Shown here: positions 5,650 through 14,480 of the stretch, in pieces | How positions within the stretch are numbered: the stretch's first letter is position 1 | Layout: every line of letters begins with the position of its first letter | DNA from: Candidatus Fermentibacterota bacterium | GTDB lineage: Bacteria; Fermentibacterota; Fermentibacteria; Fermentibacterales; JCC-6 | Direction of reading: 5' to 3' | DNA: 44,240 nt | Assembly: GCA_029571005.1 (NCBI GenBank) | Contig: JAKPTG010000017.1 | Span: 1 to 44,240 of the forward strand | The notes under the pieces: model-generated | Told to the model about the DNA's origin: nothing | What the model saw: the letters and a program-made list of their open reading frames with translations, nothing else | Databases searched by the model: none | Position numbers and translations under genes: made by a program

Positions 5650-6842
5650 CTACCGGAGAACCACCACGGGCCTGGATTCCTGACGGGAAACCACCATGTA
5701 GAGACCCTGGGGCACCCAGCCCACGTCCAGCAGCCAGAGCCCCGGCTCCGCGCAGAACGCCCTGCCGACGGTCCTTCCCGCCAGGTCAAGGAGTACCGGC
5801 GGATCGGTCTCGCCGACCGCGGTTCTCACCCGGACAACGCCGACCGCCGGGGAGGGACCGGCGCTGAACTCCGCATCCGGCGCATGGGCGGGGCTGTCCG
5901 GTTCGACTCCGAAGGGATCGGCCGAAACGTCCAGGCCGTAAGGACTGGTCACATAATAGGAGGCGACGAGCTGATGACCGCGGTCGTAACGCCTGACGTT
6001 GTTTGCGTCGCAGTCCGCCACCCACAGGATTCCATCGGAATCCACGGCAAGGCCGCTGCCCCCCGGAAACGCCGAGGGATCAACGAGTGCGCCGCTGTCG
6101 GTGTCAATGAGAATCACACCCTGCCCGTAGCAATCACCCACATAGAGGGAATCGCCGCGGCACACCCCGATCGAGGGGCAAACCCGGTCGTGATGACCCC
6201 GGTCACCTCCCCCGAGGCGATGTCTATCACGTGAATCTCGCCGTCGGTAGCCCCGTAGGTTCCGGTGCAGATCGCGTACACCTGGTCAACGCCGTCGTAA
6301 ACACAGCTCTGGACATTGAGCCCGACGCTGATCGTGTCGCAGGGAGACAGTGTCGCGATGTCCATCACCACCACCTTGTTGTCGGACAGCCACCCCCCGC
6401 ACGCCGCGTATAGCTTCCCCTCCGCCACACAAAACCATTCGGGGTTGGGGCCGATCCCCTCCACGTATCCCAGCAGACTCATCTCTGCGGCATCCACAAT
6501 GGCGATGCTGTTGCCAAGGGCGCAGGAAACCGCAAGGGTGTCGCCGCAGAGCGGGCGAACGGCCCAGCAGTTCATCCCGGTTCCGATACCCAGGGCCTGG
6601 CACGTCCAGTCAGCGGGATCGAATTTCTGGAGCGTGACGTCATCGCTCATGGAGTTGACCACGAAAAAGTTGTTCAGATACCAGAGCACGTCGTTCGGAA
6701 AGGTCCCCGGCGACGCCACGTTGGGGGTGACGGTGCCGGAAACCGCATCTATTTCGGTGAGTGTTGTTCCATAATCGCTTATCACAAGCGCAATTGCGCC
6801 AACAGCGGCAAGCCGCGCCAGTAGGGTCAACGCCGACAGCAT
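5650..6842 (-). CDS. Secreted YncE/BtuG-like beta-propeller with VVVLR tail (frameshifted)
   Basis: A GGAGGTGGAAC ribosome binding site precedes the ATG at 6842, and a hydrophobic N-terminus suggests export. Repeats of the type GD.L.VSCALGNSIAIVDAAEM, AEGKLYAACGGW and GEIHVIDIASGEVTG are those of YncE-like propellers; the Bacteroides cobalamin-binding protein BtuG is one such fold. The frame breaks at about residue 222. Adding one base in the GGGG run at 6175-6178 joins ITTGFAP to SIGVCRGDSLYVGDCYGQG and on to the C-terminal domain ending SRPVVVLR, giving about 397 residues. It follows the CWC gene behind a minus-strand cobalamin riboswitch, so B12 binding at the surface is a reasonable inference. 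The direct evidence is only fold-type repeats and context. Truncation, or a sequencing error in the run, cannot be told apart. Confidence 0.72.
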
Positions 6843-7026
6843 GTTCCACCTCCGATAGAAGACATTGTCAATCCGGTTGCATCTGAAATGGACACGAACA
6901 ACCCCGCGCTCCGCCGGCCGAGGGCCGGCATCCGCTGGGCGTTACGACGGAATCTCCGTTCCGGCGGCCTCCGGGCCGGTACCAAGCCCTGCGTACAGGA
7001 TGCCCGACGGATATCCGCTCCCCCCT

Positions 7027-7341
7027 TCACGTCAGGCAAGGGTCACCAACGGTACGGGGATCCGGAACGGACGGTTCTGTTTCTTCGCCCGTGCCGCCGT
7101 CCGGCTGCGTTGCGCATTCCCTGCAGACGCAGGCGACCCCCCTCGCCTCGGCGGGTATTCTGTCAAGCACGCTCCTGGGCACCGATACCGTTTGACACCA
7201 GCAGGATGACAGCCCCGCAAGCCTTCCGCAGCGGTTTTCCTTCCCGCACAGGGGGCAGCGGGACGGGTCAACCGCCGCCGTGTTCCGGGAATCGGGCTTC
7301 ACTCCGCCGGACGATCCGGCGGCGTCGTTCGCTTTCCTCAT
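7027..7341 (-). CDS. Cysteine-rich CWC family protein
   Basis: The 104-residue product carries the CWC signature: CPLCGKENRC, then SSCWC, then a P...L..IP spacer and ACVCRECA. These paired cysteines probably bind a metal, and the family has no settled function. The ATG at 7341 is favoured because GAAAGG lies 8 bp upstream; a TTG at 7347 is also in frame. The protein has no signal peptide, so it should be cytoplasmic. It is the first clear gene after the leftward cobalamin riboswitch (7611-7783), with a leader of about 250 bases, and precedes the YncE-like propeller by 184 bases. A tie to cobalamin or cobalt handling is inference from position only. Confidence 0.72.
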   Translation of the reverse strand: MRKANDAAGSSGGVKPDSRNTAAVDPSRCPLCGKENRCGRLAGLSSCWCQTVSVPRSVLDRIPAEARGVACVCRECATQPDGGTGEETEPSVPDPRTVGDPCLT

Positions 7342-7575
7342 CGTCAAAGCCTTTCACCTTTCCATCGGCAAGGGAAAACCGGTCGGTGGGCGACCGGTGT
7401 GACGGACACTCGATTGAACGGGCTGAAAGGGGACGGGCTCCCGCCGGCGCGGGGACGAGCGTCCGGATTCGCCGGTTGCGGGAAAACCCGATGTACCGAT
7501 GAACGAAGCGATGCACGGAAAGGCTTCCGACAGGTGCACCCGGCACCCCTTTCACTGAGCGGGTCTCCCGCCCGC

Positions 7576-7606
7576 AAAATGAAGAACCCCAGGAGCCCGC
7601 TCCTGG
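7576..7606 (-). terminator. Terminator hairpin of the leftward cobalamin riboswitch
   Basis: Reading leftward, CCAGGAG and CTCCTGG form a perfect 7-bp stem around CGGG (7589-7606), followed by GGTTCTTCATTTT. It begins 4 bases after the aptamer closing stem, where a riboswitch expression platform is expected, and would stop transcription before the CWC gene when B12 is bound. Confidence 0.6.
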
Positions 7607-7610
7607 AAGC

Positions 7611-7783
7611 CTCTCAGCAGGTCTTCGGACTTACGGGCGGATGCTCACCTACTTGCCGCGACTTCCCGAAGGTTTACCTTCAGTGTCTTTCTGCGGCTTT
7701 CGTTCCCGTTCACCGCTGCGGGACAGTTCCGGAATCGCACCGGATTCCCTTTTCAGGCAACCCATGGGGCTGCACACTGAGAG
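7611..7783 (-). promoter_or_regulatory. Cobalamin (B12) riboswitch, minus strand
   Basis: The minus strand shows the conserved order of a cobalamin aptamer: AAAGGGAATCCGGTGCGA, TTCCGGAACTGTCCCGC, and a 3' segment AAGTCCGAAGACCTGC. CTCTCAG (7777-7783) and CTGAGAG (7611-7617) close the element as P1. A sigma-70-like promoter lies directly upstream (7792-7821), so transcription should begin at the aptamer edge. Downstream are a terminator-like hairpin, the CWC gene and the YncE-like propeller gene. In known family members, bound adenosylcobalamin or a relative represses expression. Confidence 0.9.
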
Positions 7784-7791
7784 ACGGATCA

Positions 7792-7821
7792 TATATACAG
7801 AGCCCTGCGAAACCGGGTCAA
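7792..7821 (-). promoter_or_regulatory. Promoter of the leftward riboswitch transcript
   Basis: Reading leftward, TTGACC (7816-7821) and TATATA (7792-7797) are 18 bp apart, ending about 8 bp before the aptamer. An imperfect inverted repeat (GCGAAACCGGG ... CCCGGGTGGTTCGC, about 7807-7836) overlaps the -35 region and lies between the two divergent promoters. Confidence 0.6.
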
Positions 7822-7832
7822 GCCCGGGTGGT

Positions 7833-7861
7833 TCGCTCCTGCGGGCCGAACGCATTATACT
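7833..7861 (+). promoter_or_regulatory. Promoter of the rightward riboswitch transcript
   Basis: TATACT at 7856-7861 ends 6 bp before the first base of the rightward aptamer, the right distance for a -10 box. The -35 region (about 7833-7838) is poor, so the promoter may be weak or need an activator. Confidence 0.45.
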
Positions 7862-7867
7862 GTGCAG

Positions 7868-8005
7868 GCCCGCGGCGTCAGGGAAGCCGGTGTAAATCCG
7901 GCGCGGCCCCGCCGCTGTAACCGGAAACGAAACCGCACAATGCCATTGCCGAAGCGAGAAGGCGCGGAAGTAGGGTGTCCGGAAGCCAGAAGACCTTCTG
8001 CGGGC
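7868..8005 (+). promoter_or_regulatory. Cobalamin (B12) riboswitch, plus strand
   Basis: The hallmark core is complete: AGGGAAGCCGGTGTAAATCC, GGCGCGGCCCCGCCGCTGTA, and at the 3' side GGAAGCCAGAAGACC. GCCCGC (7868-7873) pairs with GCGGGC (8000-8005) as P1. The start codon of the secreted protein is 34 bases downstream, with its GGGAGGG site at about 8028-8034. No terminator is seen, and TTTC.C.ACC (from about 8010) could pair with GGTGGAAA over the ribosome binding site, so control is probably at translation. Confidence 0.92.
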
Positions 8006-8039
8006 GGTAACTTTCACAACCTTCGAGGGAGGGTGGAAA

Positions 8040-8933
8040 ATGCGGGTGATTCGTGCATTCACTTCAGGACTACCGACAGGGATAGTCCCGACGGCCTTGG
8101 CGGCGGTGCTTGCGGTCGCCGCCGCATCGGCGGATCCATGGGCCGACGCATCTCCGGCGGTGGAATACGGCCCCGGGGCCGGCTTCGGGCAGGCTTTCTA
8201 TCCGGACAATATCCTTGGGCCGCCGGATCCGGGTGCGACGCCGTCGCAGCCCGCCTACACCGAGGACGAACTGCTCACCCTCGGAAAGGATGGGTGGGTG
8301 GTCCTTCAGTTCGTGGACAACACCATCGTTGACGGGGACGGCCCGGATTTCACCGTATTCGAGAATGTCATGCAGTCCGGTTCCTCCTACTTCAGGGAGA
8401 CGGCCTTCGTTGACGTGAGCCAGGACGGCGTGAACTGGGTCAGGTTTCCATGGGACCCGGTCACCTTCGACGGGCTCGCGGGAGTCTGGCCCACCACCGG
8501 CGGTGACCCCACGGACCCCAGTGTTTCGGGGGGCGACCAGTTCGATCTTGCGGATGTGGGCATGCCATGGGTAAGCTTCGTCAAACTGACCGACTGCGGG
8601 GACTCGGTTGAGGACGGCGGGCTCTTCGACCTGGATGCGGTCGTTGCGGTGAACAGCGTCGAAACGGGCATCGGCGGGACCGGACCGGATGCGCCCCGGC
8701 TGATCTGCTTCAGCCCCGCGACGACGGGCCGTATCGAACTCTTTGCCGGAACCGCGGGCAACGTGATGGTCTTCGACCTCGACGGAAGGCTCGAGTTCAC
8801 CTGCCCCGTCAGCCCGGGCATGAACAGCATCGCACCGCGTGACGGCGCAATGACGCCCGGCGTTCGTTTCCTGGTCTTCGGGGAACAGGGCACCCCGGAA
8901 AGGGCCTCAGCCTCCGTGGTCGTCCTGCGCTGA
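8040..8933 (+). CDS. B12-riboswitch-controlled secreted surface protein with VVVLR tail
   Basis: The 297-residue product has a signal peptide of about 32 residues and a domain marked by GFGQAFYPDNILGPP, DGPDFTVFENV, VDVSQDGVNWVRFP and GGDQFDLADVG..WVSFVKL. I know this arrangement from bacterial cell-surface proteins often found near cobalamin riboswitches; the fold looks discoidin-like. The C-terminal 75 residues form a small sorting domain ending SASVVVLR. GGGAGGG precedes the ATG. It has its own plus-strand cobalamin riboswitch, so it should be made when B12 is scarce. A role in B12 capture is likely but inferred. The nearest downstream gene is on the opposite strand, so it is a one-gene transcript. 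Confidence 0.72.
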   Translation: MRVIRAFTSGLPTGIVPTALAAVLAVAAASADPWADASPAVEYGPGAGFGQAFYPDNILGPPDPGATPSQPAYTEDELLTLGKDGWVVLQFVDNTIVDGDGPDFTVFENVMQSGSSYFRETAFVDVSQDGVNWVRFPWDPVTFDGLAGVWPTTGGDPTDPSVSGGDQFDLADVGMPWVSFVKLTDCGDSVEDGGLFDLDAVVAVNSVETGIGGTGPDAPRLICFSPATTGRIELFAGTAGNVMVFDLDGRLEFTCPVSPGMNSIAPRDGAMTPGVRFLVFGEQGTPERASASVVVLR

Positions 8934-13472: not shown

Positions 13473-14480
13473 TCAGCGAACCACCACCGCCGTGGCAACC
13501 GCCGATTCCCCGGTCTCGGTCGTGAGCCTGACGAAGTAAACCCCAGCCTCGTTCACGCTGAAGCTTCCGGAGGCCGCGGCGGGCATGGATGAGACCATCC
13601 TTCCCGTGATATCGAAAAGCTGGAGCGTTCCCGCGACTCCCGGAGGCAGTTCCGCGGCAACGGGAATCAGGCCGGTACCGGGGTTCACGCCCAGGGTGAC
13701 CGAGGGCGCCTGCGGGACCGTCCCGTCGCCGACACCCTGGGGAATATCAATGAACCTGCACCAGTCGGCGTTGGGCACTTCGTGATCACTCTGCTGGTAC
13801 GAACACTGCAGGAAGGTGGCGAGGAAGAGGTTGTCGGGGTTCCAGGACGAGGCGATCTCGTACTCCGCATCCACGTAGATGGTATCGGGATAGGGCCCGG
13901 TGAACTCGACCTTCCCCCCGTAGGGGCCCAGCAGATTGTCCCTGAAGGCCTGCTTGAAGTAGGTGCCCGCCCAGTGGCCGGCCCCCGGGACCTGGTCCTC
14001 CACCAGAATGGGCCAGACCCGCATTTCCGTTTCTTCAGCCCACTGGGGCTCCTGCTCGGCGATTATCCTGATGCTTATATGGCCGCTGGTCTCGTCACCA
14101 TTTCTGGCCACCAGGATGTCAATGTAGGCCGGGACGTTGAGGCGGCTGTTGAAATGGTTCGTCAGGCTGGGGGCCGCGGTGACCTGTATCCCGTCGAAGA
14201 TGAGGAAGGGCACCGAGGAAACTCCGTACTGGGCCTTCCGAACATTCTGCTCCGTGGGGTTGGCGGTGTATATGGGGTCGCCCGCGGAGGGCCAGTTCAC
14301 ATGGGCCCTGATCACCGCCAGCCTCCCTGAGGCGATGTTATCGGCGACGAACTGGTTCAGTTGGCCTTCAATGCTCCAGCAGGGGCCGCAGCCGCTGTTG
14401 GTGAAATTTTCCAAGAGCACCACCCTGTCCGCGGCCGAGGCCAGGGTCACCAGGGCGAGAACGGCCAGAACAAAACGCAT
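13473..14480 (-). CDS. Secreted Omp28-like thioredoxin-fold protein with sorting tail
   Basis: A signal peptide (MRFVLAVLALVTLASAA) leads to a thioredoxin-like segment with NSGCGPCW (C31, C34) and later YGVSSVPFLIFDG, the cis-proline loop. This pairing is typical of Omp28-related secreted proteins of the Bacteroidetes group. A beta-rich middle domain follows, then a C-terminal sorting domain (LFDITGRMVSSMPAA ... GVYFVRLT ... AVATAVVVR). TTAGGAGAAGCCC precedes the ATG. The CxxC could act in disulphide chemistry on surface proteins, but no substrate is known. It stands 165 bp downstream of efp on the same strand and could be read from that transcript or on its own. Confidence 0.78.
   Translation of the reverse strand: MRFVLAVLALVTLASAADRVVLLENFTNSGCGPCWSIEGQLNQFVADNIASGRLAVIRAHVNWPSAGDPIYTANPTEQNVRKAQYGVSSVPFLIFDGIQVTAAPSLTNHFNSRLNVPAYIDILVARNGDETSGHISIRIIAEQEPQWAEETEMRVWPILVEDQVPGAGHWAGTYFKQAFRDNLLGPYGGKVEFTGPYPDTIYVDAEYEIASSWNPDNLFLATFLQCSYQQSDHEVPNADWCRFIDIPQGVGDGTVPQAPSVTLGVNPGTGLIPVAAELPPGVAGTLQLFDITGRMVSSMPAAASGSFSVNEAGVYFVRLTTETGESAVATAVVVR

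Follow-up and report, generated by a model that had tools for sequence, protein, structure and literature searches.

The locus at positions 5650 to 8933 of the window (the whole stretch of DNA analysed, 44,240 nucleotides [nt] from a Candidatus Fermentibacterota bacterium) is likely an accessory corrinoid-capture module, made up of a BtuG-like propeller and a BtuH-like protein that both carry C-terminal sorting tails. The sequence evidence points most likely to extracellular capture of cobamides for a BtuB receptor encoded elsewhere in the genome. A preliminary description of this DNA had proposed a B12-capture locus built on sorting-tail proteins, and this proposal was supported by homology to both domains of BtuG1, retention of B12 contacts, riboswitch linkage and the adjacency of btuB in other phyla.

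Two matches to the cobalamin riboswitch model RF00174 were detected, both above its gathering threshold of 31.5 bits. The minus-strand riboswitch (7599 to 7796) matched the model over its full length (121.5 bits, E = 4.1e-30), and the plus-strand riboswitch (7825 to 8016) scored 96.4 bits (E = 6e-23). These elements are divergent and lie back to back, separated by a gap of 28 nt. The minus-strand transcript carries a gene for a cysteine-rich CWC protein (7027 to 7341) followed by the propeller gene (6842 to 5650); the plus-strand transcript carries the gene for a secreted protein of 297 amino acids (aa) (8040 to 8933), which starts 24 nt after the end of its riboswitch. Both the propeller and the 297-aa protein terminate in VVVLR and, among the long frames of the window, a terminal pattern of three aliphatic residues, any residue and K or R was restricted to these two. 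The presence of two VVVLR-tailed surface proteins behind B12 riboswitches, as previously described, was confirmed by these matches and tails. No transporter gene was found in the two transcription units.

The BtuG-like propeller

The propeller gene (5650 to 6842, minus strand) encodes a Sec signal, a beta-propeller predicted by homology and a C-terminal sorting tail. A search of the Protein Data Bank (PDB) with the first 242 residues detected the YncE-family/BtuG1 chains 8ptf, 8ptd and 8blw, with E values of 1.7e-7 to 5.5e-7, after which the next matches fell to E = 0.7. With a family profile (A3) of 18 relatives and the window propeller, the top nine PDB matches were all BtuG structures (6e-10 to 2.8e-8), cobalamin-bound BtuG3 and BtuG2 among them; the identity of the BtuG codes was taken from PMC10404256. 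These searches indicated that the window propeller is a BtuG homolog.

The propeller is split over two frames (6117 to 6842 and 5650 to 6165), with a slip near 6165 to 6182 in a short C-rich run, and the sequence is intact on both sides of the slip, through to the tail. This frameshift is either a real mutation or a sequencing or assembly slip. In relatives, the propeller is encoded by one intact frame of about 395 to 414 aa, counted from the likely start, and the tails can be aligned with each other.

We distinguish module 1, consisting of a riboswitch, btuB and a lipoprotein btuG, from module 2, the tailed propeller/BtuH-like locus of the window type. The signal region of the window propeller has no cysteine and no lipobox, as is also the case for the aligned signal peptides of module-2 relatives, whereas the module-1 BtuGs of Fermentibacterota do have the lipobox cysteine. 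In a phylogenetic tree, the module-1 lipoprotein BtuGs formed one clade (support 1.0) and the module-2 propellers, including the window propeller on a long branch, formed another (support 0.998). The union of all tailed propellers was weakly supported (≤0.81).

The BtuH-like surface protein

The BtuH-like gene (8040 to 8933, plus strand) is an intact frame encoding a Sec signal, a B12-binding-type domain (8127 to 8669, plus strand), located by alignments to the H-domain of BtuG1 and to BtuH2, and a sorting tail. No Pfam family was found for this protein, and no PKD domain match was detected in its family, which was sampled by 60 diverse members (alignment A2). An AlphaFold model generated from the 60 diverse homologs had a predicted local distance difference test (pLDDT) score of 90.7, as compared to 51.7 for an alignment of 17 close homologs. 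A Foldseek search with the former model returned a single PDB match below 0.001, namely 8blw_B from the BtuB1-BtuG1 structure (E = 4.3e-4). A profile of the core domain likewise had exactly one PDB match at E ≤ 10, to residues 430 to 498 of 8blw_B (E = 0.0053), a region within the C-terminal extension of BtuG1 that is homologous to BtuH2 (PMC10404256). A step from this extension to BtuH2 (7biz) recovered PGQFIN and DFCVQGNAFDG.

Gln333, Asn399 and Phe401 of BtuH2 are listed as cobalamin contacts (PMC8941943). The 7biz chain numbering has an offset of 100, and the types of these three residues fall exactly as this offset predicts. The Asn399 position was occupied by Asn in 60/60 homologs, the Gln333 position by Gln in 41/60, the window protein among them, and the Phe401 position by Phe in 54/60. 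In the window, alignment placed the matching Gln and Asn codons at 8190 to 8192 and 8364 to 8366, respectively (plus strand). These results indicated that the window surface protein is a remote BtuH homolog. Comparison of a predicted structure with BtuG, performed for this protein, had BtuG1 (8blw_B) as its best Foldseek match, and the earlier label of a discoidin-like surface protein is better replaced by BtuH-like, given the BtuG1 H-domain match and the two kept contacts. A fold search of the model against viral structures produced generic beta-sandwich matches only. Membership of the DUF4465/BtuJ family was rejected, as 0/60 family members matched the DUF4465 model.

Sorting tails and predicted type IX secretion

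The signal region of the BtuH-like protein also has no cysteine and no lipobox; because a cysteine is absent from both signal regions, neither window protein is a lipoprotein by sequence. The propeller tail (5653 to 5868, minus strand), which ends in RPVVVLR, was aligned by position to the tails of relatives, and that of one representative relative matched Por_Secre_tail PF18962 (27.6 bits, cut-off 27). The tail of the BtuH-like protein (8700 to 8930, plus strand), of the type associated with the type IX secretion system (T9SS) and ending in ASVVVLR, formed a separate beta domain in the AlphaFold model. The family profile matched the T9SS tail structures 8glk and 8glj with E values of 0.03 to 0.05, and Por_Secre_tail was matched by 38/60 homologs. 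T9SS machinery is present in the genome (SprA, 359 bits), together with 32 sorting tails above the cut-off. Surface display of both proteins by a T9SS is inferred from these data, and the earlier suggestion of type IX-like tails in place of a lipid anchor is supported by the lack of a lipobox on either protein, the SprA match and the PF18962 matches of relatives.

An unrelated window protein also has a Por_Secre_tail above the cut-off (13509 to 13685, minus strand). In four loci (L123, L130, L142 and L166), the C terminus of the BtuH-like protein looks dockerin-like rather than a T9SS domain; the C-terminal attachment device therefore varies between phyla.

Riboswitch linkage and gene fusion in relatives

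The 60 sampled family members extend to Calditrichota/KSB1, Zixibacteria, Gemmatimonadota, Ignavibacteria/Melioribacteraceae, Kapabacteria, Chlorobi, Sumerlaeota, Binatia, Deltaproteobacteria and Armatimonadetes. Within Fermentibacterota, a riboswitch was detected upstream on the same strand for 20/23 BtuH-like gene copies, at distances of 71 to 1359 nt. The three exceptions are at contig ends, such that all 20 assessable loci lie behind a riboswitch. The propeller gene is normally located between the riboswitch and the BtuH-like gene in these relatives, and a Ca. Fermentibacter locus (L076) shares the divergent double-riboswitch layout of the window. Among 55 loci scanned in other phyla, 33 had an upstream riboswitch, in each case on the strand of the gene and no more than 4.9 kb away. 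A btuB-like neighbour was found in 35 and a btuG-like neighbour in 26 of these 55 loci; 11 had neither of these neighbours nor a riboswitch. Homologs unconnected to B12 genes would have spoken against the original proposal, and the linkage to riboswitches in 20/20 assessable loci of the phylum and 33/55 elsewhere does not conform to such a picture. In six loci of the Kapabacteria/Ignavibacteria type (L134, L149, L152, L156, L157 and L159), the gene is near 5S rRNA or tRNA genes and no riboswitch was detected within the locus; these loci may lack one or have a divergent version.

Fusions of the propeller and the BtuH-like domain were detected in 11 loci of the KSB1/Caldithrix type (L111, L113, L117, L118, L120 to L125 and L127). 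The fused frames of ∼600 to 650 aa consist of a signal, the propeller, the BtuH-like domain and mostly a T9SS-type or FlgD-type tail. A profile of the fused proteins matched BtuG1 in two separate stretches (2.8e-20); its top match was a generic YVTN-repeat surface layer protein. These findings indicate that the fused proteins have the domain order of BtuG1 without the lipid anchor. The two-gene form may have arisen by fission, or else the fused form by fusion.

Other B12 uptake genes of the genome

The assembly to which the window belongs as contig 8 comprises 1.87 Mb and is 92.6% complete. A search of this assembly for BtuB/TonB genes and further B12 riboswitches, an approach outlined in the preliminary description, detected a third cobalamin riboswitch (C61:1205-1387) heading a TonB receptor gene of the btuB type that is cut by the contig end. 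A second propeller gene (btuG) opens contig C92 (1 to 688). The btuB fragment (C61:1-1387) and the btuG fragment are both at contig edges. Relatives have a riboswitch followed by btuB and then a lipoprotein btuG, and the two fragments are probably one riboswitch-btuB-btuG operon split by assembly. Genes of the BtuF, BtuD and BtuC types are located on contig C90, with no riboswitch found beside them. The idea of a transporter-free system was rejected, as the genome encodes btuB, another btuG and btuFDC; the earlier statement that no transporter is adjacent holds locally, for the two units of the window, but not genome-wide. Similarly, a differently built B12 scavenging system is an apt description in that tails are present rather than lipid anchors, but not in the sense of a replacement, since a standard btuB-btuG is also encoded.

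The B12-binding domain had ten matches in the genome, and CbiC, a single marker gene, was not found in this 92.6% complete assembly. Because of these two results, the sequence data point to a host that uses B12 but does not make the corrin ring. A plasmid search found none.

Proposed mechanism and alternative explanations

Under scarcity of cobalamin, the two riboswitches would permit expression of both transcripts. The propeller and the BtuH-like protein would cross the inner membrane by Sec with removal of the signal peptide. The type IX system would then take them across the outer membrane via their C-terminal tails, to be retained at the cell surface or released. Each protein would bind cobamide and hand it over to TonB-dependent BtuB, whose gene lies elsewhere in the genome and which would work with its own BtuG, with BtuF-BtuDC completing import. 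If the frameshift in the propeller were real, only the BtuH-like arm would work.

Several observations weigh against this interpretation. The window propeller gene carries a frameshift, on which the preliminary description was silent. The link to BtuH is remote (profile E = 0.005), and the Foldseek TM-score to 8blw_B was just 0.40 when the model was searched with tail and domain together. The Phe401 position is Met in the window protein, and the comparison covered Gln333, Asn399 and Phe401 among BtuH2 contacts that further include the ring contacts Tyr510, Trp511, Trp577 and His476. The two window tails alone fell below every T9SS hidden Markov model cut-off. Finally, module 2 is absent from a genome of the same genus (G040) and, hence, is dispensable.

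Decay of the module in this genome, with a propeller pseudogene and little contribution from the locus, is a somewhat unlikely alternative and would be compatible with a capture function of the family as a whole. The single frameshift, the long branch of the window propeller and the absence of module 2 from many relatives, the same-genus genome included, are as expected for decay, whereas the intact frame after the slip through to the tail, the location of the slip in a short C-rich run where an assembly error is plausible, the very high scores of both riboswitches and the intact BtuH-like gene argue against it. Considerably less probable is a BtuH-like protein that binds carbohydrate or matrix as a jelly roll of the CBM32/discoidin type, for example as an adhesin, and whose only tie to B12 uptake is shared regulation. 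The weaker Foldseek matches included CBM32 and DDR1/factor VIII-type entries, and the Leptospira LIC_13355 lipoprotein family was matched by all 60 homologs, LIC_13355 being reported to bind laminin and plasminogen (PMC11891782). However, the sole significant structure match and the sole profile match were to BtuG1, the latter in the B12-binding H-domain; moreover, the phosphate-contacting Asn is invariant, and the domain is fused to BtuG-like propellers and found beside btuB behind B12 riboswitches across phyla. Least probable, and indeed very unlikely, is that the proteins recognise cobinamide, cobalt or another ligand in place of intact cobamides, or serve as periplasmic chaperones. Cobalamin riboswitches in other bacteria also control cobalt uptake genes, which would allow for such a ligand. 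The two kept BtuH2 contacts, however, address the nucleotide loop of cobamides (PMC8941943), and the sorting tails speak against periplasmic residence.

Relation to known systems

The interpretation of the locus as a corrinoid-capture module places it beside the BtuG and BtuH proteins of Bacteroides. BtuG1 of Bacteroides thetaiotaomicron (BT_1490, 8blw, PMC10404256) has the same two domains under B12 riboswitch control and, like the KSB1/Caldithrix relatives, combines the propeller and then the BtuH domain in one protein. BtuG1 is, however, a lipoprotein that is stably bound to BtuB1 and encoded beside it, whereas the window has two proteins with a Sec signal lacking a lipobox, T9SS-type tails and a btuB elsewhere. 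BtuG2 (BT_1954, PMC6143338) shares propeller homology and a B12-riboswitch link with the window propeller but is a surface lipoprotein with a lipobox/lipoprotein export signal, encoded beside btuB. BtuG proteins are further characterised by femtomolar affinity for cobalamin and by complex formation with BtuB. BtuH2 (BT_1956, 7biz, PMC8941943) resembles the window protein in its B12-binding domain and the Gln333 and Asn399 positions; it differs in being a lipoprotein with N-terminal PKD domains and in having Phe401 instead of Met. BtuJ/DUF4465 (PMC13398666) is an extracellular B12 binder of the jelly-roll type that is likewise linked to btuB and propellers. On sequence grounds the locus is classed with BtuG/BtuH as a variant bearing T9SS-type tails, and not as BtuG or BtuH proper because neither protein qualifies as a lipoprotein. 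No report of sorting-tail B12 capture was found in a literature search leaving out most subscription journals.

BtuG was previously viewed as exclusive to Bacteroidetes, to which it was restricted among gut genomes in 2018 (PMC6143338), and BtuH as a domain lacking structural homologs. The occurrence of propellers beyond Bacteroidetes is not entirely new, as PF16819 propellers had already been described next to DUF4465 proteins in eight clades (PMC13398666). We tentatively suggest that T9SS-displayed BtuG-BtuH cobamide capture is widespread (Fermentibacterota, Calditrichota/KSB1, Zixibacteria, Gemmatimonadota, Ignavibacteria, Chlorobi and others) and separate from the Bacteroides lipoprotein route, with a family that may reach the Leptospira adhesin LIC_13355. 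High-affinity surface capture of B12 would then be an old and broad strategy of uncultured bacteria, with a secretion tail taking the place of the lipid anchor, raising the question of whether a captor that is not fixed to BtuB can hand over the vitamin. A function would also be provided for a large uncharacterised family, which includes a protein family already described in Leptospira. As 60/60 BtuH-like proteins match part of the LIC_13355 family model (NCBIfam NF033170), this reported adhesin family may be B12-related; the Leptospira members differ in being lipoproteins studied as adhesins, with no B12 link in PMC11891782.

The CWC gene

The cysteine-rich CWC protein (7027 to 7341, minus strand) matched PF14375 with 50.7 bits against a cut-off of 24. 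The gene lies between the minus-strand riboswitch and the propeller gene. A motif search detected no CWC gene in the remaining loci examined, beyond the window and the Ca. Fermentibacter locus, where it is also beside the divergent riboswitch pair (∼13630, minus strand). The CWC gene is attached to the B12 module in both genomes that have the divergent double riboswitch.

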